Assembly (NCBI GenBank): GCA_020852755.1
Contig: JADZAF010000270.1
Coordinates: 1 to 64,000, forward strand
Reading direction: 5' to 3'
DNA: 64,000 nt
Source: Bryobacterales bacterium
GTDB taxonomy: Bacteria; Acidobacteriota; Terriglobia; Bryobacterales; Bryobacteraceae
The position numbers and the translations under genes were made by a program. Under the pieces are notes generated by a model that saw nothing but the letters and a program-made list of their open reading frames with translations, ran no database searches and was not told where the DNA came from. This document shows, piece by piece, positions 29,889 through 54,896 of this stretch (the first letter of the stretch is position 1; each line of letters begins with the position of its first letter).

Positions 29889-30593
29889 TCAGCGGATCTC
29901 ACGGATGCGGATGTTGCGGAACATCGCGAAGGTGAACTGGTCGTGGAGTTGCAGACCGATGGGGCCTGTCTTCGACCGCGCCGGATCGCCCGGACCCTCC
30001 GCGGCCAGCCGGCCGTTCACCCGCACCAGGATCCGCTCATTGCGCGATTCGATGTCCAGGCTGTTCCACCGGCCGGAGCGCTGCAGGCCGGCTACGGCCG
30101 GCACCAGGCTGTAGATGCTTCCTGAAGGATACTTTTCGTCGGTGTCGGTGATCTGGATCTCGTAGCCGATGTGGGCCGGGGTGGTTTTCGGAAAAGCGGC
30201 CAGCTCCGGACGGGCCGTGTCCGGCTCGCCGATAGCATGGTGCGCGCGGGAGCGGTCGCGTATGGAGACGCCGCCATTGCCGCGGGGCGGAATCCAATAC
30301 TCGATGTGCAGGTCGTACTCGCCGTATTCGCCCGTCGTGTACAGCCAGGCCTGGCGGTACAGCCAGGATCGGTACGCCTTCGCATCGATGGGCCAGGGCG
30401 AGGGGAACGGGCTGGCTACGTTCGTATGCGCGCGCTGGCCGAGGAGAACGCCGTCTTCCATCACCGTCCAGAGGCACTCTCCCCGGACCTCCCATCCATC
30501 CAGGTTCCGGCCGTTAAAGAGCGGCTTCCAGCCGGGACCGGCCGCCGGGCAGCACAGAGTGAAGAAGAAGACCCCGCAAATCGCGATTCTCAT
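29889..30593 (-). CDS. Secreted DUF1080 (3-keto-glycoside hydrolase-like) protein
   Basis: The protein has 234 residues with a signal peptide (IAICGVFFFTLCCPA). It is a single DUF1080 jelly-roll: WKPLFNGRNLDGWEV, VMEDGVLLGQRA, EYDLHIEYWIPPRGNGGVSIRDR, IGYEIQITD and GPIGLQLHDQ. Family members have been linked to breakdown of 3-keto-disaccharides, acting after a Gfo/Idh/MocA-type or similar oxidation of glycosides. That makes the exported Gfo/Idh/MocA protein at 14975 a possible partner. The ATG at 30593 follows AAGGGA; a TATGAT sits about 20 nt upstream. Confidence 0.87.
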   Translation of the reverse strand: MRIAICGVFFFTLCCPAAGPGWKPLFNGRNLDGWEVRGECLWTVMEDGVLLGQRAHTNVASPFPSPWPIDAKAYRSWLYRQAWLYTTGEYGEYDLHIEYWIPPRGNGGVSIRDRSRAHHAIGEPDTARPELAAFPKTTPAHIGYEIQITDTDEKYPSGSIYSLVPAVAGLQRSGRWNSLDIESRNERILVRVNGRLAAEGPGDPARSKTGPIGLQLHDQFTFAMFRNIRIREIR

Positions 30594-32886: not shown

Positions 32887-34062
32887 TCAGCTTACCCGAT
32901 ACTTCTTCACGATTTCCGGATCCGGATCGATGCCCAGTCCCGGCTTTTTCGGAACCTCTATATACCCGTTCTTCACTGGAAACAGAGGCAGGGCCAGGTT
33001 GTGCCGGCTCTCCACCGCGGGATAGGTCTCCATGATCAGCGCGTTGGGCAGCGAAGCGAGAAGATGAACGGCCATGTGCGGGCTGCCGTGCGGCGAGACC
33101 GGGACGTGATGCGCCGAGGCCAGGCCGGCGATCTTGCGCCCCTCGGAGATGCCGCCCGCGAGAACCGTGTCGCACTGCAGGATATCCACGGCGCCGGCCT
33201 GGATGAGGTCGCGGGCGCCCCAGCGCGTGAATTCGTTCTCGCCGGAAGCGATGGGGATGGAGAGTGCCCGGCGCACTTGCGCGGAGCCCTCGAAGTCGTC
33301 CGCCTCCACGGGCTCTTCGAACCAGTAGGGGTCGTACTTTTCGACCATGCGGCCGAAGCGGACTGCCTCGAATCCGGTCCAGCGATTGTTGGCGTCGATC
33401 ATCAGGTCGATCTTCGCGCCGATCGCCTCCCGGACGGCCCGGACGCGCTCGGCATCCACGTCCATCGGCTCGCCTCCGACCTTCATCGTCACCGCGCGGA
33501 AGCCTTCGCCGACGTAGCTCTCCATCTCCTTCACCAACTCGGGGATGCCTTTGCCCTCTTCGTAGTAGCCGCCCGCTGCGTACACGCGGACTTTTTCGGC
33601 AAACAGACCCAGAACGGCGCACACCGGGGCGTCGAGGGCCTTGCCGATAATGTCCCACAGGGCGATGTCCACCGAACCCATGGCCGATATGTACAACCCC
33701 TTGGCCACCGGCTTGCGGTTGTGGCGGTACATGCGGTCCCACAGGGCCTCGATGTGGAACGGGTTCATCCCCAGGATGCGCGGCAGCAACTGGCCGGTGA
33801 TGATCTCGCTGCCTCCCGCCGGGATGCTGCGCCCGGTGATGCCCGCGTCGGTGTGGATCTCGAGTTGGGTCATGCCGGGGGGGCCGCCCCCGCTTTCAAT
33901 GGTGGCGTTGCGGCGGCGAGGCGTCCGTCCGGGGAAGCGGAGGCGCAGGAAGCTCATCCCCGTGATCCTGAGGGGCGGGGGATTGAGCGGGAGCGCGCGC
34001 CTGGGCAGCGCCAGGGAGGCCGAAGCCCCGGCCGCGCAGCGCAGGAAATCACGGCGGTTCAT
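32887..34062 (-). CDS. Tat-exported enolase-superfamily (MR/MLE) sugar-acid dehydratase-like protein
   Basis: The protein has 391 residues. The leader MNRRDFLRCAAGASAS is twin-arginine. Metal ligands lie at barrel strand ends: LMIDANNRW (Asp), WFEEPV (Glu) and ASGENEFTRW (Glu). ILQCDTVLAGG and VPVSPHGSPH supply the His/Asp catalytic side typical of sugar-acid dehydratases. The KxK base motif has only one Lys (AVTMKVGG). The reaction is probably removal of water from an aldonate such as rhamnonate or galactonate. It is the first gene of a minus-strand unit running through the beta-helix and DUF1080 genes to the GH36-like gene. A RhaT-like gene is divergent from it. Confidence 0.85.
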   Translation of the reverse strand: MNRRDFLRCAAGASASLALPRRALPLNPPPLRITGMSFLRLRFPGRTPRRRNATIESGGGPPGMTQLEIHTDAGITGRSIPAGGSEIITGQLLPRILGMNPFHIEALWDRMYRHNRKPVAKGLYISAMGSVDIALWDIIGKALDAPVCAVLGLFAEKVRVYAAGGYYEEGKGIPELVKEMESYVGEGFRAVTMKVGGEPMDVDAERVRAVREAIGAKIDLMIDANNRWTGFEAVRFGRMVEKYDPYWFEEPVEADDFEGSAQVRRALSIPIASGENEFTRWGARDLIQAGAVDILQCDTVLAGGISEGRKIAGLASAHHVPVSPHGSPHMAVHLLASLPNALIMETYPAVESRHNLALPLFPVKNGYIEVPKKPGLGIDPDPEIVKKYRVS

Positions 34063-37534: not shown

Positions 37535-38542
37535 TTGGCTACCCCCACAACCCAGCCAGGCCTCTTCCTGGAGGCCTACCGGCGTATGCTGCTGCTGCGC
37601 CGCTTCGAATTGAAAGCCCAGGAACTGTACCGCCGCGGAGAGATGCCGGGATTCATCCATCTGTATGTGGGTGAGGAGGCCGTGGCGGTAGGCGTCTGCC
37701 TGCATCTCAGCCGCGAAGACTACGTGACCAGCACGCACCGCGGCCACGGGCACGCCCTGGCGAAAGGCATCTCCGCCCGTGAGGTGATGGCCGAACTGTT
37801 CGGCAAGGCCACCGGCTGCTCCGGCGGGCGCGGTGGAAGCATGCACCTGTACGCGCCGGACGTAGGGTTTCTCGGCACCAATGGACTGGTCGGCGCGGGG
37901 ATTCCGGTGGCCGCGGGCGCCGGGCTGGCCGCGCAACTGCGGCGGTCCGGGCAGGTGGCGGTAGCCTTTTTCGGGGACGGCGCGGCGAATCACGGGGCCT
38001 TCCATGAAGGCCTCAACCTGGCGGGCGTCTGGAACCTGCCCGTGGTGTTCGTCTGCGAGAACAACCTGTACGCTACCCAGACTCCCTTGCGGATGGCCAC
38101 GAAGAATCAGGACATCTCCAGCCGCGCAGCCGCTTACGGCATGCCGGGAGCGGCCGTGGACGGCAACGACGTGGAGGCCGTGTCGGCGGCCGCAGCCGAG
38201 GCCCTGGCGCGGGCGCGGTCCGGCGGCGGCCCCAGCCTGCTCGAATGCCGCACCTACCGCTTTCTCGGCCATCACGAGGGCGATCCCGGCACGGGGTATC
38301 GCAGCCGCGAGGAAGTGGAGGCCTGGAAGAAGCGCTGCCCGATTGCGCTGGAGCGGGCGCGCCTGATCGAGCGCGCCGAGGCTGCGGAAACGGCGCTCCA
38401 GGACATCGAACGGGAAGTAGAGGAAATGATTGCCGGCGCGGTCGAGTTCGCCCTGGCGAGCCCGCTGCCGGATGCGGCCGAGGCGCTGCGCCACGTCTTT
38501 CCCGAAGCGGCCGGAAGCGCGGAGGCGGTATGGGCGCGCTAG
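37535..38542 (+). CDS. Pyruvate/acetoin-type 2-oxoacid dehydrogenase E1 component, alpha subunit
   Basis: The protein has 335 residues and a TTG start with GGAG 10 nt upstream; an ATG 17 codons in (37586) is the alternative. FIHLYVGEEAVAVGVCLHL and GHGHALAKG are typical of the alpha chain. The TPP motif AFFGDGAANHGAFHEGLNLA ends with NN of VFVCENN. LGHHEGDPGTGYR is close to acetoin dehydrogenase AcoA. It decarboxylates pyruvate or acetoin with thiamine diphosphate in the cytoplasm. Its stop overlaps the beta-subunit start by 13 bp. Confidence 0.92.
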   Translation: MATPTTQPGLFLEAYRRMLLLRRFELKAQELYRRGEMPGFIHLYVGEEAVAVGVCLHLSREDYVTSTHRGHGHALAKGISAREVMAELFGKATGCSGGRGGSMHLYAPDVGFLGTNGLVGAGIPVAAGAGLAAQLRRSGQVAVAFFGDGAANHGAFHEGLNLAGVWNLPVVFVCENNLYATQTPLRMATKNQDISSRAAAYGMPGAAVDGNDVEAVSAAAAEALARARSGGGPSLLECRTYRFLGHHEGDPGTGYRSREEVEAWKKRCPIALERARLIERAEAAETALQDIEREVEEMIAGAVEFALASPLPDAAEALRHVFPEAAGSAEAVWAR

Positions 38543-39552
38543 CGGGGCGGGCGGCGGCCCGCGAGATCACGTTCGTCGAAGCCACCGTGGAGGCCCTGCG
38601 CGAGGAGATGCGCCGCGACCCGGCCATCTTCTACATGGGCGAGGGCATCGGGGCTCGGGGCGGGAATTTCACCCAGACCAAGGGCCTGTACGACGAGTTC
38701 GGGCCGGAGCGCGTGCGTGACACGCCGATCTCCGAACTCGGTTTCACCGCCGCGGGGGTGGGTGCAGCCATGGCGGGCATGCACCCCGTGGCGGATCTCA
38801 TGTTTGCCGACTTCATCGCCGAAGCCATGAGCCAGGTGGTCCACCAGGCGGCCAAGGTGCACTACATCTCCGGAGGGCGAATCGAGGTGCCGCTGATTGT
38901 CCGGGCGGCCTTCGGCGTGGTCCGTTCGGCCGGGGCGCATCACTCGGGCAGCTTGTACCCCTGGTTCATGCACGTGCCGGGCTTGAAGGTGGCGGTGCCT
39001 TCCAGCCCGGCTGACGCCAAGGGATTGTGGAAGACCGCGCTGCGAGAGCGCTGCCCGGTAATGATCTTCGAGCACAAGGGACTGTATAACCAGAAGGGCC
39101 CGGTTCCCGAAGGAGAGTACCTGACGCCCTTCGGGCAGGCCGCTATCGCGCGCGCCGGCCGCGACGCCACCATAGCCGCAACCGCGCTGATGGTGCATAA
39201 GTCCCTGCAGGCCGCATCCATCCTGGAAGGGGAAGGCATATCGGTTGAGGTGCTGGACCTGCGCACGCTGGTCCCGCTGGACGAAGAGTCGATCCTCAAG
39301 TCGGTGGCCAGGACCGGCCGGCTGGTAATCGCCGACGAGGCTCACGAGACCTGCGGCGTGGGAGCCGAGATCGCGGCGCGGGTGGCGGCCAGAGGGTTCG
39401 ATTTCCTGGATGCCCCGATTGCGCGCGTGTCGATGCTGCAGGCGCCCCATCCTTTCAGTCCTCCCCTGGAGGCGGCGCTGCTGCCGTCTCCGGAGAAGAT
39501 CGCGGCGGCCGTGCGGGCCGCGGTGAGGGGCGAGGAGGCGCATGCCGGTTGA
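38530..39552 (+). CDS. Pyruvate/acetoin-type 2-oxoacid dehydrogenase E1 component, beta subunit
   Basis: The protein has 340 residues. It contains the cofactor-site Glu region (FYMGEGIGARGG), DTPISELGFTAAGVGAAMAG, LMFADFIAEAMSQVVHQAAK and the C-terminal IADEAHETCGVGAEIAA, all typical of E1-beta/AcoB. It pairs with the alpha subunit to form the E1 active site. ATG 38530 lies inside the end of the alpha gene, and its own stop overlaps the E2 start by 11 bp, so the three are translated as a unit. Confidence 0.92.
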   Translation: MGALAGRAAAREITFVEATVEALREEMRRDPAIFYMGEGIGARGGNFTQTKGLYDEFGPERVRDTPISELGFTAAGVGAAMAGMHPVADLMFADFIAEAMSQVVHQAAKVHYISGGRIEVPLIVRAAFGVVRSAGAHHSGSLYPWFMHVPGLKVAVPSSPADAKGLWKTALRERCPVMIFEHKGLYNQKGPVPEGEYLTPFGQAAIARAGRDATIAATALMVHKSLQAASILEGEGISVEVLDLRTLVPLDEESILKSVARTGRLVIADEAHETCGVGAEIAARVAARGFDFLDAPIARVSMLQAPHPFSPPLEAALLPSPEKIAAAVRAAVRGEEAHAG

Positions 39553-40693
39553 CCTGGTGATGCCGCAACTCGGTCTCACCATGACCGAGGGCAAGCTGCT
39601 GCGATGGTGCAAGCAGGTGGGGCAGACATTCGAGGCCGGCGAACCCCTGTTCGAGGTGGAGACCGACAAATCCAACATGGAGGTCGAAGCCAGCGAGGCC
39701 GGAACGCTGATTGAGGCCATGCCGCCGGCGGACGACCCGCTGCCCGTGGCTCACGTGATCGGCCGCTATCTGCGGCGAGGCGAGAGCCTGGAGACCGCTG
39801 CCGGCGCCCTGGAGAGCCCGGCGCGGGTACGGCGGCCGGCATCGCCGCGCGCGCGGGCGGCCGCCCGCAGGCTGGGCGTCGATCTGGCGGCAATTTCCGC
39901 AGCAGGCGGGCGGATCGTGGAAGCCGATGTCCTGCGGGCCGCGGAGGCGCAGGCTCCGGCGGTGGAACTCCCGGCGCCCGCCGGGCGGACGGCGCCGGTT
40001 CCCAAGCTGCGCCGCGTCATCGCCGAGCGCATGACCGCGAGTTTCCGGACCGCGCCCCACTTCTACGTTACGCGCGAAGTGGATGCGGGAGAACTTCTGG
40101 CCGTCAAGCGCACCTATCAGGCGGCTTTGGAAAAGCGCGGCCTGCCGGCCTTGAGTCTGACCGACCTGCTATTGAAAGCGGTGGCGCTGGCCGTCCGGGA
40201 TCACCCGGCGGTCAATGCCGGCTGGGTGGACGGGGAGATTCGCCCGCATCGCGGGGTGAACATCGGCCTGGCCGTCGCCCTGGAGGACGGGCTGACCGTT
40301 CCCGTTCTGCGCGAGGTCGATCGATCGGAGATCACTGAACTGGCCCGCCGGCGGCAGTCGCTGGTGGAGCGGGCCCGTGCTTCGCGGCTGCGGCCGGACG
40401 ACATGGGCGACGCCGGCGCCACTCTTTCCAACCTCGGCATGTACGGGGTGGACCAGTTCCAGGCCATTCTGAATCCGCCGGAAAGCGTTCTGGTGGCCGC
40501 CGGCCGCGTGCGCGAGCGGGTGGTCGCGGTGAAGGGCGCGGCGGCGGTCCGGCCGACTTTGTTCGTGACGGTGACCGCCGACCACCGGGTGATCGATGGC
40601 GTGCAGGCCGCCCGCTTCCTGGCGAGTGTGGCGGAGGCGCTGGAAAACCCGGGCCTGCTGCTGCTGCCCCCGGAGAGTCAAGCGAAATCTTGA
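39542..40693 (+). CDS. Dihydrolipoamide acyltransferase (E2) of a 2-oxoacid dehydrogenase complex
   Basis: The protein has 383 residues. The single lipoyl domain (residues 1-78) has the modified lysine in VETDKSNMEVEASEAG. A short E3/E1-binding domain follows at about 100-135 (ASPRARAAARRLGVDL). The acyltransferase core (~150-380) ends with the catalytic TVTADHRVIDGVQAA. It moves the acyl group to CoA. No E3 (dihydrolipoyl dehydrogenase) gene is in the window, so the complex must share one. The gene is convergent with the SDR gene, 7 bp apart. Confidence 0.92.
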   Translation: MPVDLVMPQLGLTMTEGKLLRWCKQVGQTFEAGEPLFEVETDKSNMEVEASEAGTLIEAMPPADDPLPVAHVIGRYLRRGESLETAAGALESPARVRRPASPRARAAARRLGVDLAAISAAGGRIVEADVLRAAEAQAPAVELPAPAGRTAPVPKLRRVIAERMTASFRTAPHFYVTREVDAGELLAVKRTYQAALEKRGLPALSLTDLLLKAVALAVRDHPAVNAGWVDGEIRPHRGVNIGLAVALEDGLTVPVLREVDRSEITELARRRQSLVERARASRLRPDDMGDAGATLSNLGMYGVDQFQAILNPPESVLVAAGRVRERVVAVKGAAAVRPTLFVTVTADHRVIDGVQAARFLASVAEALENPGLLLLPPESQAKS

Positions 40694-41605: not shown

Positions 41606-42442
41606 ATGAATACGCGATTCCTCGGAAAGAAAGTGATTGTCACCGGATCGGGCACGGGTATCGGGCGCGAGATCGCCCTCGAATTCGGCCGCCAGGGCGC
41701 CGACGTGGCGCTGCACTACGCCCACAGCGGCGCGGGCGCGGACAGCGCCGCCGGGGAGATACGCGCCATGGGAAGAAGAGCCGAGGCCTTCGGCGCCGAC
41801 CTCGCCGGCCTGGAGAATGTATTCCAATTCGCCGGCCGCGCCCTGGATTTCCTGGGGGGCGTGGACTGCCTGATCAACAACTCCGGCATCACCATGAACA
41901 AGCCGCTGCTGAAGGTGACGCCCGAGCAGTATGACGTGATCTACAACGTCAATGTCCGGGCGCAGTTCTTCCTGATGCAGCGGGCGGCTGCCTACATGGT
42001 GGAACACGGCGGCGGGGCGATCGTGAATCTCACCTCGGTCCACGGCCTGGCGGGCGCCCCGGAGCATTCCGTGTACGCGGGCACCAAAGGCGCCATCATC
42101 GCGCAAACCCGCGTGCTGGGAATCGAACTGGCGCACAAGGGCGTGCGTGTCAATGCCATCGCGCCCGGCTGGGTGGTAGTGGAGAACCATAGCAGGGCGG
42201 TGCCGGGGAGCACCGTGGAATCGGCCATGGAAGGCGCCAGGGATGCCGTGCCGTTGGGCCGCCCGGGGTTCCCGGTGGAGATCGCCAAGCTCGCCACGTT
42301 CCTTTGCTCGGACGATGCCCAGTTCATTGTCGGCCAGACCATCGTGGCAGACGGCGGCACCACCGCGCTGATGTCCCTGATCCGCGACTTTCGGAGCGAA
42401 TCCAGCGCCCGCTTCGGGACCGGATATGTCCCGGGGGTGTGA
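41606..42442 (+). CDS. Short-chain dehydrogenase/reductase (sugar dehydrogenase-like)
   Basis: The protein has 278 residues. VTGSGTGIGREIALEFGRQG binds NAD(P). The active site is complete: NLTSVHGLAG (Ser) and SVYAGTKGAI (YxxxK). The ending GQTIVADGGTTAL fits the FabG/glucose-dehydrogenase group, with a ~25-residue C-terminal extension. It probably oxidises a sugar or sugar-acid hydroxyl in the cytoplasm. It heads a plus-strand operon with the mutarotase-like gene (12 bp away) and the UlaG-like gene, which suggests aldose to lactone oxidation, although this is inferred. Confidence 0.87.
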   Translation: MNTRFLGKKVIVTGSGTGIGREIALEFGRQGADVALHYAHSGAGADSAAGEIRAMGRRAEAFGADLAGLENVFQFAGRALDFLGGVDCLINNSGITMNKPLLKVTPEQYDVIYNVNVRAQFFLMQRAAAYMVEHGGGAIVNLTSVHGLAGAPEHSVYAGTKGAIIAQTRVLGIELAHKGVRVNAIAPGWVVVENHSRAVPGSTVESAMEGARDAVPLGRPGFPVEIAKLATFLCSDDAQFIVGQTIVADGGTTALMSLIRDFRSESSARFGTGYVPGV

Positions 42443-42454
42443 AAGGAGGCGGCC

Positions 42455-43525
42455 TTGAACTACAGGGACCTGACTGCGTCGCTGGAGGGGGCGGGCAAAC
42501 CCACCCGGGCGATCCTGGCCGCGGATGGAGGACGGATTCTCCTGCTGCCGCACGGCGGGCGCGTGATCGGCCTGTTTGCCGCGGGAGACGACGAGAACTT
42601 CTACTGGACCCACCCGGCGCTCGAATCGGCCGCCGCGGCGCGGAACTTCTATGCCGGCGGCGAATGGGAGAATTCGGGCGGAGACCGCACCTGGATCGCG
42701 CCCGAGCTGGATATCTTCTTTCCGCGTTACCCCGACCTGGATCCTTCCGGCTACTTCCAGCCGCGGCAACTCGACCCCGGCTGCTACCGGGTGGAGGAAT
42801 GTGACGGCGCACCGGAATTGGTGAGCCGGCTCTCCCTGGACCTGTACCGTTCGAAGGGCAGGGTGGATCTGGAGGTGCGGAAACGGGTCACGCCGGCGGC
42901 CAACCCGCTGCGGCATGAAACGGATCCGGCTGACGCCGGCCGGGTCCGGTATGCGGGCTACAGCCAGCGGACGTCGCTGGCGATCACGGGCGGCCAGGGG
43001 CGCGTGGGACTCTGGAGCCTGCTGCAGATGCCGCACGGCGGCAAGATGATCATCCCCACCTATTCCCGAAGCGAGCCGCGCCTGTACTTCGGCTCGATTC
43101 CCGCCGCGGACCTCGAGGTGTCGGGCCGGGCGGTGCGCTGGCGGATGCACGCGCGCGGCGCGCACAAGATCGGGGTCCGCGCCGTCGCGGCGGCCGGCCG
43201 GGCCGGCTACTGCTGTGGCTCGGGCGAACGGGCCAGCCTGGTCATCCGGAACTTCAAGGTGGACCCTTCCGGGGAGTACGCCGATGCGCCGGCGGAACAA
43301 CCGCATGAGCCGGGCGACGCCGTTCAGGCGTGCAGCGTGGACAATGCGATGGGGAGCTTCAGCGAGCTGGAATACCACGTCCCGGCGATCGGCGGCGGCA
43401 CGGGGCGCCTTCACTGCGAGGACGTGAGCGAGGTATGGGCGTTCCGCGGTCCCCGCGCCGCCCTGGATCGCATCCGGGAGAAGCTTCTGGGAGACTACGA
43501 CGAGACGTTGAGGCAACGACTATGA
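42455..43525 (+). CDS. Galactose-mutarotase-like beta-sandwich protein (DUF6786-like), function unknown
   Basis: The protein has 356 residues and a TTG start 6 nt after AAGGAGG. The sequence is rich in beta strands and reads like an aldose-epimerase-type sandwich: GRILLLPHGGRVIGLFAAGD, NFYWTHPALES, GGDRTWIAPELDIFFP and LLQMPHGGKMIIPTY. There is no leader, so it is probably cytosolic. Similar sequences are usually annotated DUF6786; that name is a tentative recall. Its place between a dehydrogenase and a lactonase suggests handling of sugar anomers. Its stop overlaps the next start (ATGA). Confidence 0.6.
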   Translation: MNYRDLTASLEGAGKPTRAILAADGGRILLLPHGGRVIGLFAAGDDENFYWTHPALESAAAARNFYAGGEWENSGGDRTWIAPELDIFFPRYPDLDPSGYFQPRQLDPGCYRVEECDGAPELVSRLSLDLYRSKGRVDLEVRKRVTPAANPLRHETDPADAGRVRYAGYSQRTSLAITGGQGRVGLWSLLQMPHGGKMIIPTYSRSEPRLYFGSIPAADLEVSGRAVRWRMHARGAHKIGVRAVAAAGRAGYCCGSGERASLVIRNFKVDPSGEYADAPAEQPHEPGDAVQACSVDNAMGSFSELEYHVPAIGGGTGRLHCEDVSEVWAFRGPRAALDRIREKLLGDYDETLRQRL

Positions 43526-44295
43526 CGGCCCTGGCATCCGACATCCGGCAAACCTCCGTGGAGCCCGGCACGCTGGCCATCTTCTGGCTCGGGCAGGCGG
43601 GTTTCGCGTTCAAGAACAGCGCGGGAAAAGTGGTCTATGTGGATCCGTACCTTTCCGACGCGGTGGAGCGGGTCTACGGCTTCAAGCGCATGATGGCCTG
43701 CCCGATCGCGGCAGACGAGGTGGAGGCCGACCTGGTGGTGTGTACCCACGAGCATCTCGACCATACGGACACCGACGCCATTCCGGTCATCGCGCGCCGC
43801 ACGGCGGCGCGCTTCGCCGGCCCGTCCGAATGCACTACGCTTTTCCGCCAGATGGGTCTGACCGCCGACCGCTGCCTCCTGCTGGAAGAAGGAAAGCGGG
43901 CGGAGGCGGCCGGCGTCGGCGTCACGGGAGTGTACGCCGACCACGGCACGCTGGCGCCCGGCGCGCTGGGGGTGGTTCTGGATTTCGGCGGCATCCGCGT
44001 CTACCACTCCGGCGACACCGCCTACCGTCCGGACCGGTTTCAGTACGCCGCCTCGCTCCGCCCGGACGTGTTGATTCCGTGCATCAACGGCGCCTACGGC
44101 AACATGGATGCCCGCGAGGCGGCTCTGATGGTGCGCGACATCAATCCCGGTCTCGCCATCGCTTCGCACTTCTGGATGTTCGTCGAACACGGCGGCGACC
44201 CGGCCCGGTTCCTGGAAAGCTGCGCCGCGGAGGCGCCCGGCGTCAAAGCGATCGTCATGAAGCCGGGAGAGCGCTGCCTCGTGACCGGACCGTAA
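43522..44295 (+). CDS. UlaG-like metallo-beta-lactamase-fold lactonase
   Basis: The protein has 257 residues and no leader. IFWLGQAGFAFKNSAGKVVYVDPYLSD is the start of the UlaG-type MBL fold, and the metal motif is CTHEHLDHTDTD (HxHxDH). YADHGTLAPGALGVVL, YHSGDTAYRPDRF (metal Asp) and ASHFWMFVEHGG (late His) complete the site. The best-known relative, UlaG, opens L-ascorbate-6-phosphate lactone; this one has its own substrate, probably a sugar lactone made by the SDR of the same operon. It is translationally coupled to the gene before it. Confidence 0.85.
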   Translation: MTALASDIRQTSVEPGTLAIFWLGQAGFAFKNSAGKVVYVDPYLSDAVERVYGFKRMMACPIAADEVEADLVVCTHEHLDHTDTDAIPVIARRTAARFAGPSECTTLFRQMGLTADRCLLLEEGKRAEAAGVGVTGVYADHGTLAPGALGVVLDFGGIRVYHSGDTAYRPDRFQYAASLRPDVLIPCINGAYGNMDAREAALMVRDINPGLAIASHFWMFVEHGGDPARFLESCAAEAPGVKAIVMKPGERCLVTGP

Positions 44296-44346: not shown

Positions 44347-45348
44347 CTAGGAGGCCGCCGCGCGCGCGGCTGCCACGCCGTTGACCACGTTGACCGGGGC
44401 TCCACCCTCGAGAACCCGCCGCACGATCGAGGCGGCGCCCGATCGCATGTCGACGACCGATTCCACCGAATAGAAGGCGGCGTGCGGCGTGAGGAGGCAG
44501 TTGGAGTGAGCCAGGAGTTCGGGCGCAAATGCGGGTTCGTTTTCCACCACGTCCAGGGCCGCGCCGCCCAGCGCGCCGCGCCCGAGCGCGGCCGCCAGCG
44601 CCCGTTCCTGCACCAGCGGGCCGCGCGCGGTATTCACCAGAAGCGCGCCCGGTTTCATGCGAGCCAGCTCCGGCTCTCCGATCATGCCGCGCGTTTCCGC
44701 AGTGAGCGGTGCATGCAGCGTCACCACGTCCGCGGCGGCCAGCAGTTCGGCCAGCGAGCCGGCCCGCTCCACGCCCAAGGCCTTTTCGTACCCGCTGGCC
44801 AGGTACGGGTCGTAGAAAACCACGCGGAAGCCGAAGGCCTTGGCCCGCAGCGCGGCGGCGCTGCCGATTCTCCCGCATCCCACCACGCCGAAGCACTGCC
44901 CGCGAATGCGATGCGTGGGAAGGGCCGCCTGCCAGGACCACTGGCCCGACGCCGCGCTGCCGGCGCAGGCCTTCAGGCGCCGCTCCAGCGCCAGGGTGAG
45001 CATCAGGGCGTGGTCGGCTACTTCCTCGGTGCCGTAGTCCGGCACGTTGCAGACCGGGATGCCCAGCGAGGCGGCAGCCTCCGTGTCCACGTTGTCGTAG
45101 CCCACACCGGCCCGCACGACCACGCGCAGGCGGCCCGAATCCTCCCTCAGCGCGCGGGAGATCTTCGGAAGCGGCGAGAAAACGATGAAGGCCGCGGCGC
45201 TGCGCAGCAGTTCCCGGTCCTGCCGAGGATCGTCCACCAGGGCAGGCCGGATGTCTGCGGCTTCACCCAGAACGCCGCGCTCCAGTTCGAGGCTCCCGAT
45301 AGGGGGCGACAGGGCGCTGTCGATCAGGCAGACCAGCGGTTTAGACAT
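44347..45348 (-). CDS. D-isomer-specific 2-hydroxyacid dehydrogenase
   Basis: The protein has 333 residues. The Rossmann motif is VVGCGRIGSAAALRAKAFGF. The catalytic Arg is in VVVRAGVGYDNVD, and further on are NTARGPLV, Glu in DVVENEPAF and His in LTPHAAFYS. This matches the phosphoglycerate-dehydrogenase/C-terminal-binding-protein group. It has no leader, so it is cytosolic. It may reduce the 2-keto product of the upstream aldolase-like step or handle glyoxylate. It is the last gene of the four-gene operon, 39 bp after the DHDPS-like gene. Confidence 0.9.
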   Translation of the reverse strand: MSKPLVCLIDSALSPPIGSLELERGVLGEAADIRPALVDDPRQDRELLRSAAAFIVFSPLPKISRALREDSGRLRVVVRAGVGYDNVDTEAAASLGIPVCNVPDYGTEEVADHALMLTLALERRLKACAGSAASGQWSWQAALPTHRIRGQCFGVVGCGRIGSAAALRAKAFGFRVVFYDPYLASGYEKALGVERAGSLAELLAAADVVTLHAPLTAETRGMIGEPELARMKPGALLVNTARGPLVQERALAAALGRGALGGAALDVVENEPAFAPELLAHSNCLLTPHAAFYSVESVVDMRSGAASIVRRVLEGGAPVNVVNGVAAARAAAS

Positions 45349-45387
45349 GTCGGCATGGTTCCTTTCATTGGCCGGCGGCGCCGCCGG

Positions 45388-46389
45388 TCATTTCTTCCAG
45401 GTCATCAGGGGCGCAAGGTCCTTGAGGATCTCGTCGAGGTAGCGGGAAGCTGTCTCATCCATGGGCATGGGCCCGTTGCGTTTCAGCGGACAGTCGATAA
45501 CACCCCGGCGATAGAGCACTTCCTTGTAACAGCCGCTCAGCGGGGATTCGAAAAAGAACAGGGGCGCCATCTCCTTATAGATGTGCATGGCGCGCGCCCT
45601 GTCACCTTTCTCGAGCGCGTTCCAGAGGGCCACCACCACGTCGGTGACATGGCAGCCGGGCATCTGGCCGGCGCAGCCGCGGCGATGCTCTTCGATCAGG
45701 TAGCGCCCGCCGGCGCCGCCGAACACGCCTTTGCAGAGCCCGGCCCCTCGCTTGAGGATGGCGGTCGTCCGGAAAGTGCTGGGCGAGGTCTCCTCCTTGA
45801 TGTACCTGACGTATTCAATCTCACGGCACATCCGCAGCATGAATTCCACGGACAGGGGGGTGCCGACCGGAGGGTCGTGATCCTGCAGGAACACCGGCAA
45901 GCGGCCGGCTTCGGCGATTCGCCGGTAGAAATTGAAGATCACTTCCTCGCTCTGCACGCCGCGGGGAGGCATGGCGATCACGGCGTCGGCGCCGATTTCG
46001 CGGGCGTGCGCGGCAAACCGCCCGGCATGCTCCTGGGTGGACGCGTTCACGCCGATCACCACCGGCACGCGGCCGGCATTCCGTTCCACCAAAACCTGGT
46101 CCAGCCGGAGGCGCTCGTCGTCGCTCAAGGCCGACCACTCGCTGGCGTTCACGGGAAACACCAGGCCGTGCGCCCCGCAGGCGACACAGAAGTCGACCAC
46201 CCGGCGGAAGCCGGGGATGTCAAGATCGCCGTTCGGCCGGAAAGGCGTCGAGGGAATGGTGTATACGCCGCGGAAGGGTTCTTTCGCGGAGGCGGCGGGC
46301 AGGCTTGCGGAGAGCACGGCCGCGCCCGCGGCCGTTTTGAGGAAATCGCGCCGGCGCGGCCGCGCCATCTCGCTCGCGTTGGGGTTCAT
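45388..46389 (-). CDS. Tat-exported DHDPS/NAL-family lyase-like protein
   Basis: The protein has 333 residues. The leader PRRRDFLKTAAGAAVL is twin-arginine. The barrel of the dihydrodipicolinate-synthase/N-acetylneuraminate-lyase family follows: GVYTIPSTPFRPNGDLD, FPVNASEWSALSDDER, VPVVIGVNA and the Schiff-base Lys in RYIKEETSPST. The Tyr of the usual YNxP motif is absent (LQDHDPPVG), and GTTGE is replaced by NASEW. It may form or cleave a bond next to a keto acid (such as 2-keto-3-deoxy sugar acids) by a modified mechanism. The start is ATG 46389; ATG 46368 is the alternative. The upstream dehydratase gene is 19 bp away. Confidence 0.82.
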   Translation of the reverse strand: MNPNASEMARPRRRDFLKTAAGAAVLSASLPAASAKEPFRGVYTIPSTPFRPNGDLDIPGFRRVVDFCVACGAHGLVFPVNASEWSALSDDERLRLDQVLVERNAGRVPVVIGVNASTQEHAGRFAAHAREIGADAVIAMPPRGVQSEEVIFNFYRRIAEAGRLPVFLQDHDPPVGTPLSVEFMLRMCREIEYVRYIKEETSPSTFRTTAILKRGAGLCKGVFGGAGGRYLIEEHRRGCAGQMPGCHVTDVVVALWNALEKGDRARAMHIYKEMAPLFFFESPLSGCYKEVLYRRGVIDCPLKRNGPMPMDETASRYLDEILKDLAPLMTWKK

Positions 46390-46408
46390 CGTGGGATGCC
46401 TCTCGCTC

Positions 46409-47680
46409 TTACTTTCGCACGCCGCCGGTGCGCTTCTCCCAGCCGTCCTCGAAGAGGCGCAGGAAGTTGTTGGAACCGTAGGGGTGCTTCGCCATCTCTT
46501 TCTCGTCAAACTCGACGCCCAGGCCGGGGGCATCGGGCGGCTCCAGGTACCCGTTCCTGACCCGGGGCACGCCGCGCATCAGGTCGCGCGCCCAGGGCTC
46601 CAGAAAGTCGTCGAAGCACTCCTGGATCAGGAAATTGGGAATGGTGGCGTTGATGTGCGCGTTGATGGCGGTGTTGTACGGGCTCTGCGCCTGGTGAAGT
46701 GCGACGAACGCCTCGGCGGCTTCGGCCACGGCGGCCGCCTTGCGGGCTCCGCCGATGCCTCCGACTTTCAACGTCTCCGGCTGCACGATGTCCACCGCGC
46801 GGCCGGCCAGCAGCTCCTCGAATTCACGCAGGCGGCTGAAACGCTCCCCGGTGGCCACCGGAACCTTGATGGCGCGGGCCACCTCCAGCGTGGCCGCGAT
46901 GTCGTTGGACATGACCGGGGTCTCGAACCACATGGGGCGATACTCTTCCAGTTGCCGCCCCACGCGGATGGCTGTCGAGACGCTGAAGCGGTCGTGCCCT
47001 TCGACCAGAATGTCCATGTCGTCTCCGACGGCCCTGCGGACCGCCGCGACGATGGCCAGCGATTTCTTCTCTTCGCCGGAATCGAAGAACCGGTAAGCGC
47101 TCCCGAAGGGGTCGAACTTCAGGGCGGTGTAGCCCATCGACTTGACCTCCGAGGCCCGTTCGGCGAAAGCGCCCGGCTCTCTGGGCCCTTTGTACCAGCC
47201 GTTGGCGTAGACCCGCAGGGAGGGCGACAGCTTGCCGCCCAGCAGCTTCCACACGGGCGCGTTCAAGCTCTTGCCGAGGATGTCCCAGCAGGCGATGGCG
47301 ATGCCGCTCATGGCCACATTCGTGCCGAGGAACAGGCCCTTGTACATCCTCTGCCACAGGCGCTCCGGGTACAGCGGGTTCTCGCCGATCACGAACCGGC
47401 TGAGTTCGTGCACCTGCGCCTCGGGGGCCTTGGTTTCGAGGCCGCTGGTTGCCTCCCCCCAGCCGAAAAGGCCGGAGTCGGTTTCCACCTTGATGAAGAG
47501 CCAGTTCTTCCACGGGTTGCCCACCACGAAGGTCTTCATGCCCGTGATCTTCATGTTGGGCTGAGCCGCGGAGAGAGCCTGGCGCGAGGCCAGCAAGCCG
47601 GAGACCCCCGCCATGGCGCGCATCATCTCCCGCCGTGTGACGCGGGTCCCTTCAGAACGGCGGGAGAGACTGGAAATCAC
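46409..47680 (-). CDS. Tat-exported enolase-superfamily sugar-acid dehydratase-like protein
   Basis: The protein has 423 residues. The GTG at 47680 was chosen because AAGGAG lies 8 nt upstream; an ATG at 47722 lacks this and gives an unlikely N-terminus. The leader VTRREMMRAMAGVSGLL is twin-arginine. The fold shows VETDSGLFGWGEATSG, a strand-2 KFDPFG, DILVEGHDRFS (metal Glu), WFETPV, VATGERF, IVQPETLKVGG and FVALHQAQSPYN (His). That pattern fits D-galactonate/gluconate-type dehydratases. It should make 2-keto-3-deoxy acids, which the DHDPS-like protein could then use. It is the second gene of the operon. Confidence 0.88.
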   Translation of the reverse strand: MISSLSRRSEGTRVTRREMMRAMAGVSGLLASRQALSAAQPNMKITGMKTFVVGNPWKNWLFIKVETDSGLFGWGEATSGLETKAPEAQVHELSRFVIGENPLYPERLWQRMYKGLFLGTNVAMSGIAIACWDILGKSLNAPVWKLLGGKLSPSLRVYANGWYKGPREPGAFAERASEVKSMGYTALKFDPFGSAYRFFDSGEEKKSLAIVAAVRRAVGDDMDILVEGHDRFSVSTAIRVGRQLEEYRPMWFETPVMSNDIAATLEVARAIKVPVATGERFSRLREFEELLAGRAVDIVQPETLKVGGIGGARKAAAVAEAAEAFVALHQAQSPYNTAINAHINATIPNFLIQECFDDFLEPWARDLMRGVPRVRNGYLEPPDAPGLGVEFDEKEMAKHPYGSNNFLRLFEDGWEKRTGGVRK

Positions 47681-47718
47681 AACCCAAATCTCCTTTTCAA
47701 GTTCTTCAAACGAACCAA

Positions 47719-49314
47719 TCATACACCGGAGCGCCGGCCTCCCGAGACGGCGTAGCGGTGGCGCTCGGCGGTCCAGCGGGCCTTGCCGTATTCGCCCAGG
47801 TCCACGGTCCCGCTCATGCGATCGTTCTCGACCCGGCCGCGGAAAACGTAGCTGAGCCGCGTCCCTTCATGACGGTGGGAACTGCTGAAGTGAACTTCGC
47901 TCCCCGCGACGCCGCCGCGGAGATCTCCGGAGAGGACGCCGCCCCGGTGCGTGCCGCTCAGGCTTCCGCCGTCCTGTTCCAGGAACAGAGAATGGCCGGC
48001 CGAACCGAGCACGAACTCCAGCCGGACGTCCCACTGCCCCGCGATCGATGCGGGCTGCCCTGGCTCAGGCGCCGGCTTTGGGATCCGCGGCGGCCGGGAG
48101 AGGACCGCGCGCAGCCGTTCGGCCACCACTTTCTCGTCTCCGGTGACCATCATCTGAGGGAAGATGACGACCGAACTCTCGCCCGGCGGGCGGCGCTCCG
48201 GCCAGAAGACGATGCGGGGATCCGTCTCGAAGAGCAGCTTTCTGACCTCTTCGCCCGTGATTCCCACCCGCGCCGCGTCCCAGGCGATCAGCAGCCTGGG
48301 CGTGCGGTTGGACAGCCCCGGCGGCTGCAGTACCTCGGTCCGGACGGTGGGCGCCTGGCTGACCTCCCTGGCGATATAGGCCAGCCACGCCTCGAACCTC
48401 TTCCACTCGGCGTCGTGGTCGCGTTTCACCCACTCCTCCACCGCCGCCAGCATCCCCATGATCTCCTCCTTGCCGACCTTCATGGAGCGGCCGAAGGCGT
48501 GGTGGGGCGCGCTGTTCAGCCAGGCGGCCTGAAGCAGATCCTTCCGCCCCAACAGCAGCCCGGCGCACTGCGGGCCGCGGATGCACTTGCCTCCGCTGTA
48601 GGCCACCATTGCGGCGCCCCGGCGCAGGTGAATGTTGGGAACGGTGAGATGCTCGGCGGCGGCATCCACGATGAGCGGAACGCCCATTGGCCCGGCCAGC
48701 CGGGAGACCGCTTCGGTTCCCAGGGGCCCCTCGTCGCCGGGTCCGGCCAGGATCATGATCATGGCCGTTCGCGGGTTCAACGCGGCCGTCAGCTCTCCGG
48801 GCGTATCTACTTCCACGATCCTCACACCCAGCATGCGGATGGCGTGGTCGTACACGTTGCGCGAATAGCGGGGGATGACGACCTCGTTCTTCAGCCCCGC
48901 CAGGTCGGGGAGCCGCTGCATCTTCTCGGGGTCCGCCCCGGCGATGCAGGCTGCCGTCGCGTGCGTCAGGGCTGCCGCGCAGCCGGCGGTCACGATGCCC
49001 CATTCGGCGCCGGTCAGTTCCGCCAGCCGCTTTCCCACGGCGTCCATCAATTCGTCCATGTGGACGTAATGGCGCGAGGCTGCGTCCATCGCTCTCTTTA
49101 CCCGCGGCAGGGTCTGGGAACCGCTGACGATCGTGTAGGCCCCGGTGCAGTTGATCAGGGGACGGACGCCGATGGAACGGTAGATGCCGGGACCGGCGGC
49201 TGCCGGCGCCGCCGCCGCCCGCCTGCCCGGAAGCAGGTTGAGCGAGGCGAGCCATCCGCCGGCGCGGAACAGGTCCCGGCGGGTGAAAGCGGTGAACCTC
49301 TGTCGCCAGGTCAA
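47719..49314 (-). CDS. Tat-exported SelA-like PLP enzyme with C-terminal beta domain
   Basis: The protein has 531 residues from TTG 49314, which has GGAGGA 7 nt before it; a GTG at 49329 is possible. The leader FTRRDLFRAGGWLAS is twin-arginine. Residues ~45-420 are a SelA/D-glucosaminate-6-phosphate-ammonia-lyase-type fold: NCTGAYTIVSGSQTLP, WGIVTAGCAAALTHATAA, LIVDAAAEHLT and the PLP lysine in VAYSGGKCIRGPQ. Residues ~435-531 form an extra strand-rich domain (FLEQDGGSLSGTHRGGVLSG). Relatives remove ammonia from amino-sugar acids. It is the first gene of the operon with dehydratase, lyase and dehydrogenase genes. Confidence 0.86.
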   Translation of the reverse strand: MTWRQRFTAFTRRDLFRAGGWLASLNLLPGRRAAAAPAAAGPGIYRSIGVRPLINCTGAYTIVSGSQTLPRVKRAMDAASRHYVHMDELMDAVGKRLAELTGAEWGIVTAGCAAALTHATAACIAGADPEKMQRLPDLAGLKNEVVIPRYSRNVYDHAIRMLGVRIVEVDTPGELTAALNPRTAMIMILAGPGDEGPLGTEAVSRLAGPMGVPLIVDAAAEHLTVPNIHLRRGAAMVAYSGGKCIRGPQCAGLLLGRKDLLQAAWLNSAPHHAFGRSMKVGKEEIMGMLAAVEEWVKRDHDAEWKRFEAWLAYIAREVSQAPTVRTEVLQPPGLSNRTPRLLIAWDAARVGITGEEVRKLLFETDPRIVFWPERRPPGESSVVIFPQMMVTGDEKVVAERLRAVLSRPPRIPKPAPEPGQPASIAGQWDVRLEFVLGSAGHSLFLEQDGGSLSGTHRGGVLSGDLRGGVAGSEVHFSSSHRHEGTRLSYVFRGRVENDRMSGTVDLGEYGKARWTAERHRYAVSGGRRSGV

Positions 49315-49425: not shown

Positions 49426-51360
49426 ATGGTGCGACGGGTGATGGCCTGGCTCCTGCTGTTCGGCTGCGGCGCCGGGGGCGCGGAGATGCCGTTGATCGTG
49501 GCGCAGGAGACGGCGCCGCCGCCGGAATGGGCCTTGTTGGAGCGCCGCCTGATCCGGACGATGAACCGCGCGGCGGAGGAGTTCGTTCGCAAGTATGCCG
49601 GCCCCGGCGGCGAAATGCCGGCGATCGGCAAGCCGGACGATATGTACGAAGTCTTTGCCAACTGGCCGCTGTTTTACGCTCTCGGCGGCGACCGCGGCAT
49701 TCTCGAGCACAGCCTGCGGCAATGGAGAGCGATCACCCGCCAGCTTGAAGCCCTGGGACGCGCCCGGCGCGAGTTCGTGACCGGCTACGACTGGTTCCAT
49801 CACTCGGAGGGATACAAGTACTTCTACTATCTCGGACTGACGGGAGCGGCGGTTCCCGAGAACGCCCAGCGGGCCCGGCGCTTCGCCGCCATGTACATTG
49901 GAGACGACCCGCAGGCGCCCAACTACGATCGCCGGCACAGGATGATGCGCTCGCCGCTCACCGGCGCTTCCGGTCCCGTGTTCGAGCAGGACGCAGTGTA
50001 CCTGCTGAACCACGGCCACGCCAGCTTGTACCCGCTGATGAAGAGCGAACCCGAGCCGGGCTGGGAGAAAGATCCGGCCCGGCGCCGGGAGATCCAGCGG
50101 CTGTACAACCGCGTCGTGGTACAAGGCGATACGCCCATCTCACTCAGCGCCACGGCGCTGGTGGCCACGGCCTACCTGTATGCCGGTGAAGAGAAGTACA
50201 AGCGGTGGATTGCGGAGTATGCCGGCGCCTGGATGGAACGGATTCGAAGAAACGGCGGCACGGTTCCGGATACCATCGCGCCCGCAGGAGAGATCGGGGG
50301 ATCGCGCGGCGGTCAGTGGTGGGGCGGGCTGTTCGGCTGGAACGCCCGGTACTCGCTGCACATGATACTCGGCGCCCTGACCACCGCTTCGGAAACGGCG
50401 TACCTGGTGACCCGGGATCCGGCTTACCTCGACTTAGTCCGGTCGCAACTCGAGATGCTCCTGAGAAACGCGAAGACCGTGGAAGGCAACGTGGTGGTGC
50501 CGTACCGGTACGGCCCGCGGGGCTGGTTCGACTACCGTCCCCTGGAGATCCGCGAGCTGAGTCACCTGTGGAACGCGTCGATGGACGCCGGCGATTGGAA
50601 GCGGATTGAGACGGTCCTGGCCGGCTACCGCTGTGGGCCCCGGCCCTACGACGGCTACAACGACTATGCCATGCCGGTCAGCGGCCACAAGACGTACGCC
50701 TGGCGGCCCAATCATGTGGCGATGGATTGGAAGGCGGTGGTGAGCAACGGCGACATCGGTGACAAGATGCAGGAACAGGAGGAGTTGAACGAGGCGCCGC
50801 GCATCCTGTACCTGGCCGGGCGGAACCCGGGCTTTCCAGAGAGGGTCCTCAAGGCCAATGACCAGGAGGTGCTCCGGCGGCTGCGCGTGAGCCGGGCGGT
50901 GCAGGATATCCGCAAGGTCCCCGATCTGCACAGCGAGTACCTGGCCGGCATCAATCCGGTGGTCACCCAGGGCCTGGTTTACCTGACGCTGGGCGGGCCT
51001 CAGGCCATCTACAACGGCGGGCTGCTCCAGGTACGCCTGCGCTATTTCGACCCCCAGGAGAAGAGGCCGGGCCTGCCAGAGGACGTGGCCGCGCTGGTCG
51101 AAACAATGGACGGCGCCCGAACGGTGGTGCGCCTCGTGAACGTGAACAGCCTCGAAACCCGCACCGTCATTCTGCAGGCCGGCGCCTTCGGCGAGCACGA
51201 ATTCGGCCGGGTCCGCTACCGCAGCCTTGCGGGCGCCTGGCAGGACACGCGAGTGTCCGGCAGGCACGTTTCGGTACGGCTTCTGCCGTCCGCTTCCATC
51301 CGGCTGGAGATCGGCATGCGGCGGTATGTCAACGATCCGGGCTTTGCGTCCCCCTGGTAA
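49426..51360 (+). CDS. Large secreted protein, probable alpha/alpha-barrel glycan-active enzyme
   Basis: The protein has 644 residues with a leader (VMAWLLLFGCGAGGA). The first ~450 residues are helical with Trp and Tyr-rich loops (YDWFHHSEGYKYFYYLGL, GGSRGGQWWGGLFGWNARY, LSHLWNASMD), resembling (alpha/alpha)6 toroids of some glycosidases and lyases. A beta-rich tail follows. I do not recognise a specific family. The start was set by the consensus TATAAT just upstream and the leader. A hairpin at 51393-51424 follows the gene. Confidence 0.6.
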   Translation: MVRRVMAWLLLFGCGAGGAEMPLIVAQETAPPPEWALLERRLIRTMNRAAEEFVRKYAGPGGEMPAIGKPDDMYEVFANWPLFYALGGDRGILEHSLRQWRAITRQLEALGRARREFVTGYDWFHHSEGYKYFYYLGLTGAAVPENAQRARRFAAMYIGDDPQAPNYDRRHRMMRSPLTGASGPVFEQDAVYLLNHGHASLYPLMKSEPEPGWEKDPARRREIQRLYNRVVVQGDTPISLSATALVATAYLYAGEEKYKRWIAEYAGAWMERIRRNGGTVPDTIAPAGEIGGSRGGQWWGGLFGWNARYSLHMILGALTTASETAYLVTRDPAYLDLVRSQLEMLLRNAKTVEGNVVVPYRYGPRGWFDYRPLEIRELSHLWNASMDAGDWKRIETVLAGYRCGPRPYDGYNDYAMPVSGHKTYAWRPNHVAMDWKAVVSNGDIGDKMQEQEELNEAPRILYLAGRNPGFPERVLKANDQEVLRRLRVSRAVQDIRKVPDLHSEYLAGINPVVTQGLVYLTLGGPQAIYNGGLLQVRLRYFDPQEKRPGLPEDVAALVETMDGARTVVRLVNVNSLETRTVILQAGAFGEHEFGRVRYRSLAGAWQDTRVSGRHVSVRLLPSASIRLEIGMRRYVNDPGFASPW

Positions 51361-53930: not shown

Positions 53931-54896
53931 ATGTTGCGACGCCAGTTTTTGAACAGCATGATCGGGGGCGCGGGCGCCGCGGGCCTCGCACTATCCCAGA
54001 CTTCCCCATCTCCCGGGGTGACTCTGGAGCGCCCGGCGGCCGGAACGCCGCACAAGGGCAAGGTGCTGCTGGCCGTGCAGGCGCACTCCGACGACATTCC
54101 GCTTTCGGCCGCGGGCACCGTGGCCAAACTCGTTCAGGAAGGCTACACGGGCTACCTGCTGCGGACCTCGAACGACGACATGGGCGACGCCCCGGGGCTG
54201 GGGACGCCGGGCACCATCGGCGAGAACGTTCTGGGCAACGAGCGGGACAATGCCAGGCTCGTGTCCATACTCGGCCTGAAGGGCCACTTCGACTTCAACT
54301 ACAACAACCACTACATGGGCGGCGTGGCCTTCAACGAACTGCTGTGCCGGATCATCTTCCTGATCCGGTTTCTGAAGGTGGATACCGTGGTCTGCTGGGA
54401 CCCCTGGGCCCACGACGAGGAGAATCCGGATCACTACGTGACGGCTCGCGCGGTGGAGGCGGCCTGCTGGATCGCCGGCCGCCGCCACGACTACCCGGAG
54501 CAGGTGGCCGCCGGCTTCGCGCCGCACGCGGTGACGGATAAGTATTACTTCGCGCGCCGGCCGGAGATCACCCGGGTGGTTGACATCAGCGAGGTAATCG
54601 ACAAGAAGGTGGAGGCCAACCGCGCCAACGTGGCGAAGGGGCCGGCGGGCACGAACGGATCCCGCCTGCGGGCCGAACTGGCCCGGCGCAACCTGCGCCT
54701 CCCGCTGCTGGGCGAGGATGACGCCACGGCCGACCGGAACTACATCAAGGAATTCGTGCTGGCGCGCAACCGCGAACTGGGCAAGCGCCACGGCGTGGCC
54801 TACGCGGAAGCCTTCCATTACATTGGACCGGGGGCGGGCGGCCGGGATTCCCGGATCGAGGAATACATCAGGAAGCACGCGGTGCCGCTGCGATAG
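53931..54896 (+). CDS. Tat-exported PIG-L/LmbE-family deacetylase
   Basis: The protein has 321 residues. The leader MLRRQFLNSMIGGAGAAG is twin-arginine. The metal motif of the family, LAVQAHSDDIPLSAAGTVAK (AHxDD), lies at residues ~45-62, then LRTSNDDMGDAPG, DPWAHDEENPDHYVTAR with the later His and Asp. It removes N-acetyl groups from sugars, such as GlcNAc conjugates. The AHSDD in place of AHPDD is a known variant. It is transcribed without a leader from TATAAT overlapping a palindrome. The gap of 140 bp to the next gene holds the second copy of the 44-nt repeat. Confidence 0.88.
   Translation: MLRRQFLNSMIGGAGAAGLALSQTSPSPGVTLERPAAGTPHKGKVLLAVQAHSDDIPLSAAGTVAKLVQEGYTGYLLRTSNDDMGDAPGLGTPGTIGENVLGNERDNARLVSILGLKGHFDFNYNNHYMGGVAFNELLCRIIFLIRFLKVDTVVCWDPWAHDEENPDHYVTARAVEAACWIAGRRHDYPEQVAAGFAPHAVTDKYYFARRPEITRVVDISEVIDKKVEANRANVAKGPAGTNGSRLRAELARRNLRLPLLGEDDATADRNYIKEFVLARNRELGKRHGVAYAEAFHYIGPGAGGRDSRIEEYIRKHAVPLR

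Follow-up and report, generated by a model that had tools for sequence, protein, structure and literature searches.

A Bryobacterales operon for a proposed nicotinamide-free sugar-acid module outside the cytoplasm

Introduction

Can a bacterium carry out part of a sugar-acid pathway outside its cytoplasm? This question is raised by a four-gene operon of a Bryobacterales bacterium, a soil-type acidobacterium, located at positions 44347-49314 on the minus strand of a 64,000-nt stretch of contig JADZAF010000270.1, hereafter the window. The operon encodes a SelA-like protein (P0001), an enolase-superfamily protein (P0002), a DHDPS-family protein (P0003), and a 2-hydroxyacid dehydrogenase (P0004). 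A reading from the DNA letters alone, hereafter the sequence-only reading, had assigned them to one pathway whose middle steps run outside the cytoplasm, with cleavage of a 2-keto-3-deoxy acid by P0003 and final reduction inside. Of this interpretation, the sugar-acid-type enzymes, the probable export of three proteins by twin-arginine translocation (Tat), and a nonrandom gene linkage stood up, whereas the aldolase step, the conserved four-gene block, and the linkage of the dehydrogenase did not. We tentatively propose, with somewhat less than even confidence, that the operon encodes one form of a module that processes sugar acids, and possibly amino-sugar acids, outside the cytoplasm and without nicotinamide cofactors.

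Results

Four minus-strand open reading frames were confirmed in the order SelA-like, enolase, DHDPS family, and dehydrogenase, and the measured intergenic gaps of 38, 19, and 39 bp agreed with the spacing of 19-39 bp reported earlier. Pfam matches above gathering thresholds were PF13378 and PF02746 for the enolase, PF00701 for the DHDPS-family protein, and PF02826 and PF00389 for the dehydrogenase; the SelA match of P0001 was weak (19.4 bits versus a cut-off of 22.8). The SelA-like gene starts at TTG 49314, preceded by GGAGGAA (alternative start, GTG 49329), and the enolase gene at GTG 47680, preceded by the ribosome-binding site AAAAGGAGA (alternative start, ATG 47722); residues are counted from GTG 49329 in P0001 and from ATG 47722 in P0002. 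A promoter scan of the operon found none, and terminators occurred only at chance level.

This genome is the only representative of the window's genus. Searching GTDB with the DHDPS clade yielded 80 loci, 74 of which had a called gene and fell into 25 clusters at 65% identity; genes outside the window were called with a simple script. Within one gene of the clade, 7 of the 25 clusters had an enolase gene and 3 had a SelA-like gene, compared with 2 and 0, respectively, of 358 background genes (p 7e-8 and p 2e-4), both p values being approximate as the background genes came from the same loci and the clusters were partly dependent. Furthermore, the SelA-like, enolase, and DHDPS-family genes stood together in the same order as in the operon in locus L196 and in a different order in L100, all with twin-arginine (RR) leaders in both loci. 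The four-gene block, whose conservation had been put forward as a check, was found only in this genome when the class was searched with each of the four proteins and GTDB with the DHDPS-family protein.

Several observations weigh against the proposed module. The enolases of L196, L100, and others linked to the clade belong to different subgroups, thus implying no single shared substrate and a recurrent combination of enzyme types rather than an orthologous operon. Long SelA-type genes mostly stand apart, with no enolase or clade DHDPS gene in 40 loci searched about 8 kb to each side, and were therefore rejected as a marker of the module. P0004-type dehydrogenases were found within three genes of the DHDPS clade in 0 of the 25 clusters, and the closest relatives of P0004 (in L226-L228 and others) occur without the other three enzyme genes; linkage of the dehydrogenase to them was thus rejected. 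Neither the operon nor the scanned proteins of the window include an aldehyde dehydrogenase. P0001 retains only one of the three phosphate arginines of D-glucosaminate-6-phosphate ammonia-lyase (DGL) and lacks its His163. Glu200 of L-2-keto-3-deoxyarabonate dehydratase (LPDHT), its proposed C5 base, is Gly227 in P0003, which is therefore filed as LPDHT-like and not as LPDHT, and whose substrate or chemistry must differ. Finally, export is predicted only.

Alternatively, the pathway might comprise the enolase and the DHDPS-family protein only, the SelA-like gene and the dehydrogenase being unrelated neighbors on a shared transcript. The solitary long SelA genes and the unlinked dehydrogenase fit this explanation, which we nevertheless consider rather improbable, because SelA-like genes adjoin the DHDPS clade far above background and two further lineages, L196 and L100, each combine all three enzyme types. 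Thus, of the pathway claimed for all four genes, the ties of the enolase or SelA-like gene to the DHDPS clade held, and those of the dehydrogenase did not extend beyond this operon.

P0003 is likely a second dehydratase rather than an aldolase. Its closest solved relative by sequence is LPDHT (3fkk), as are all nine best PDB structural matches of its model. Residues Q169, K198, and E200 of P0003 align to Gln143, Lys171, and Glu173 of LPDHT (3fkk numbering), where Gln143 replaces the aldolase tyrosine, catalysis is proposed to use Glu173 and Glu200 as bases, and Glu173 is unconserved in other DHDPS/NAL enzymes (PMC9795676). The catalytic tyrosine of aldolases is absent from P0003, with Gln at its position; this Gln is also present in 96 of 98 homologues carrying the Lys and Glu, and all three residues are invariant in 38 aligned sequences. 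The missing tyrosine together with the Gln/Lys/Glu signature makes Schiff-base dehydration the likelier chemistry. The lyase of the sequence-only reading, which would follow the two other exported enzymes (deamination or dehydration) and yield pyruvate plus an aldehyde from a 2-keto-3-deoxy acid, was rejected on these residues and is unlikely, even though P0003 has the DHDPS-family fold and Schiff-base lysine and, in the genomes L103 and L104, relatives of P0002 have tyrosine-type DHDPS proteins nearby.

For P0001, the sequence-only reading had pointed to SelA relatives such as the DGL group, which remove ammonia. NCBIfam TIGR01437, the DgaE family, matched its residues 49-409, and its best solved relatives by sequence and fold were 7lc0 and Cap15 (8t7j). 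Its pyridoxal phosphate (PLP) lysine is K248. In place of DGL His162 and His163 it has Pro and a gap, and the three phosphate arginines of DGL correspond to R345, E378, and Q392, so that one is kept and two are lost, as judged by a pairwise alignment in which a shift near 378-380 is possible. Relatedness to DgaE was thus upheld, whereas P0001 was rejected as a DGL itself, two defining features having failed. The loss of two phosphate arginines fits a nonphosphorylated substrate. His163 is the stereospecific proton donor of DGL, yet the DGL H163A mutant remains active (PMC9529869), indicating that the loss of His163 by itself is compatible with such activity. This result, and the placement of P0001 nearest the DgaE family by NCBIfam, leave only a small chance that P0001 is an O2-using enzyme of the Cap15 type, a PLP-dependent monooxygenase-decarboxylase (PMC7497351), or performs other PLP chemistry in a module not concerned with amino-sugar acids; in favor of such an enzyme are the missing proton donor and a similarity in sequence and fold to Cap15 that is almost as great as that to DGL. 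Only long SelA-like proteins, both throughout the family and in a second family of the class, have the C-terminal eight-stranded domain of P0001; short forms lack it. Related genomes (L146, 4885-8567; L133; L229) repeatedly have PIG-L/LmbE-type deacetylases, resembling the window gene at 54018-54896, close to SelA-like genes, hinting at N-acetyl-sugar substrates.

P0002 has the metal ligands E241, E267, and E293, as well as H243 (Glu-x-His) and H343, at the characteristic positions of acid-sugar dehydratases of the superfamily (three acidic ligands, Glu/Asp-x-His, and a second His). Its nearest family models are gluconate/galactonate dehydratases, both below their equivalog cut-offs (NF040790, 323.9 versus 750 bits; PRK14017, 256 versus 311 bits). 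The closest relatives of P0002 (46-50% identity) begin at the MKIT core and are leaderless; in the tree, P0002 stands beside leaderless relatives (support 99/95), with further leaderless proteins outside. Its leader is therefore most simply explained as a gain in this lineage from a leaderless subfamily. The in-frame coding score of the leader segment is far above that of the other two frames, and its hydrophobic stretch is short.

As the sequence-only reading had stated, the first three proteins carry an RR motif followed by a hydrophobic stretch, and P0004 begins with MSKPLVCLID and has no leader. Tat signals were predicted from the RR motif and hydrophobicity, without a trained predictor. 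By this measure, Tat-like leaders occurred on 182 of 1587 unlabelled neighboring genes; given such frequency in these genomes, a single leader alone is weak evidence. The fractions were above background for the DHDPS clade (69/97), the SelA-like proteins (46/70), and the enolases (24/45). Moreover, 20 of 23 enolases adjoining the DHDPS clade carried Tat-like leaders compared with 6 of 19 unlinked ones, and two of the three linked exceptions contained RR motifs that fell short of the script threshold. Many linked cases come from one syntenic group, and several separate enolase lineages show the same leader pattern. A shared site of action for the proteins is best supported by these linked-enolase leaders together with the apparent leader gain of P0002. 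Tat export of P0001, P0002, and P0003 is thus probable, as had been claimed, given leaders above background and a single TatC gene with a strong match in the genome. It is very improbable that the RR stretches fail as Tat signals and that the cytoplasm is where the enzymes act: Tat-like N termini are indeed common among neighbors and the hydrophobic stretch of P0002 is short, but leaders occur across divergent homologues and track linkage, and TatC is present.

Export signals on further usually cytosolic families were found in the same island: a Tat-tagged Gfo/Idh oxidoreductase, a Tat-tagged DegT-type aminotransferase, and a 3-keto-disaccharide hydrolase (14975-16300, plus; 17876-19198, plus; and 29889-30593, minus). 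A second Tat-tagged enolase-superfamily protein (32887-34062, minus; leader MNRRDFLRCAAG...) lies near a GH120-insertion/beta-helix protein and a RhaT-like transporter.

P0004 contains, by sequence reading, an NAD-binding GCGRIG motif and the catalytic R (NTARG), E (ENEP), and H (TPHAAF). Features of the operon are collected in Table 1.

Table 1. Genes, leaders, and an additional domain of the operon (window positions)
Feature	Position	Strand	Basis
SelA/DgaE-like fold-type I PLP enzyme P0001 with extra C-terminal eight-stranded domain	47719..49314	-	TIGR01437 5e-45; PLP lysine K248; model pLDDT 79
Predicted Tat leader of P0001, FTRRDLFRAGGWLASLNLLPG...	49195..49314	-	sequence; 46/70 SelA homologues Tat-like
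C-terminal eight-stranded domain of P0001, residues 431-523	47750..48030	-	model pLDDT 79
Putative enolase-superfamily acid-sugar dehydratase P0002	46409..47680	-	PF13378 2e-61; NF040790 1e-96, below cut-off; ligand motifs
Predicted Tat leader of P0002, VTRREMMRAMAGVSGLLASRQALSA; absent from close relatives	47555..47680	-	ribosome-binding site; coding score; leaderless relatives
DHDPS-family Schiff-base enzyme P0003, L-2-keto-3-deoxyarabonate dehydratase-like	45388..46389	-	3fkk 1e-39; Gln169/Lys198/Glu200; pLDDT 91
Predicted Tat leader of P0003, RRRDFLKTAAGAAVLSASLPAASA	46282..46389	-	sequence; 69/97 of clade Tat-like
Leaderless D-2-hydroxyacid dehydrogenase P0004	44347..45348	-	PF02826 1e-54; CtBP/PGDH-like by sequence

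Around the operon, a 644-aa protein (49426-51360, plus) is encoded divergently; it has no Pfam match, and a longer form from TTG 49363 has no NCBIfam match. Convergent with the operon, a tight plus-strand set (41606-44295) encodes a leaderless SDR, DUF6786 protein, and UlaG-like metal-dependent hydrolase, which could be a sugar dehydrogenase and lactonase and fits a sugar-acid setting. Proteins of the 2-oxoacid dehydrogenase E1-alpha and E1-beta types and a lipoyl E2-like protein are encoded in a row (37586-40693, plus), with no E3 beside them.

Discussion

In the extracytoplasmic module that we propose, the SelA-like, enolase, and DHDPS-family enzymes would bind Mg2+ or PLP as they fold in the cytoplasm, before export by Tat. 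Outside, the enolase-type dehydratase would convert an aldonate to a 2-keto-3-deoxy acid, and the SelA-like PLP enzyme would convert a 2-amino acid to the same type of 2-keto acid with loss of ammonia. P0003 would then form a Schiff base with the 2-keto acid and, having no tyrosine but its own Glu200 as base, remove a second water, leaving the chain uncleaved. The product would be imported, and the cytosolic NAD-dependent dehydrogenase could reduce it. None of the reactions placed outside in this scheme requires diffusible NAD, and the sole leaderless enzyme of the operon is the NAD enzyme.

On a wider scale, and more doubtfully, Acidobacteriota may share a widespread extracytoplasmic deoxygenation route, in which Tat-exported enolase-type dehydratases and SelA-type ammonia-lyases would make 2-keto-3-deoxy acids from diverse sugar and amino-sugar acids, the likewise Tat-exported Schiff-base dehydratase clade would remove a second water before uptake, and cytosolic dehydratases would be recruited by leader gain. 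The open-access literature held nothing relevant to an exported sugar-acid pathway described in Acidobacteria, an absence that is weak evidence. If such a route exists, sugar-acid metabolism, usually placed in the cytoplasm, runs partly outside in abundant soil bacteria through PLP, metal, and Schiff-base chemistry only, which would help account for the many Tat-tagged copies of normally cytosolic families in these genomes. Furthermore, about 100 proteins resembling L-2-keto-3-deoxyarabonate dehydratase, most of them leader bearing, would constitute a large testable family with a clear mutational signature.

Among known systems, LPDHT of the Weimberg-type L-arabinose pathway (PDB 7c0c and 3fkk) shares with P0003 the fold, the Schiff-base lysine, the Gln in place of tyrosine, and the Glu two residues past the lysine. 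P0003 differs by its Tat leader, the Gly in place of the Glu200 base, an identity of approximately 31-32% across the structural match, and a context in which an aldehyde dehydrogenase was not found nearby. DGL, the best solved relative of P0001, likewise has the PLP lysine and the one retained substrate arginine; P0001, unlike DGL, has neither His162 nor His163, has lost two of the three phosphate arginines, carries an extra C-terminal domain and a Tat leader, and scores far below the NCBIfam cut-off (153.9 versus 385.3 bits). Cap15 has the same fold as P0001 at about 27% identity, but is an enzyme of antibiotic biosynthesis. D-Gluconate and D-galactonate dehydratases resemble P0002 in the three metal-ligand positions, the Glu-x-His acid, and the second His, whereas P0002 scores below their equivalog cut-offs and has an added leader. 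The main text of the paper on enolase paralogue expansions in SAR202 (PMC6946804) contains none of the words signal peptide, periplasm, and dihydrodipicolinate; these expansions resemble the present case in their many D-galactonate-dehydratase-like paralogues, which have a proposed role on recalcitrant organic matter.

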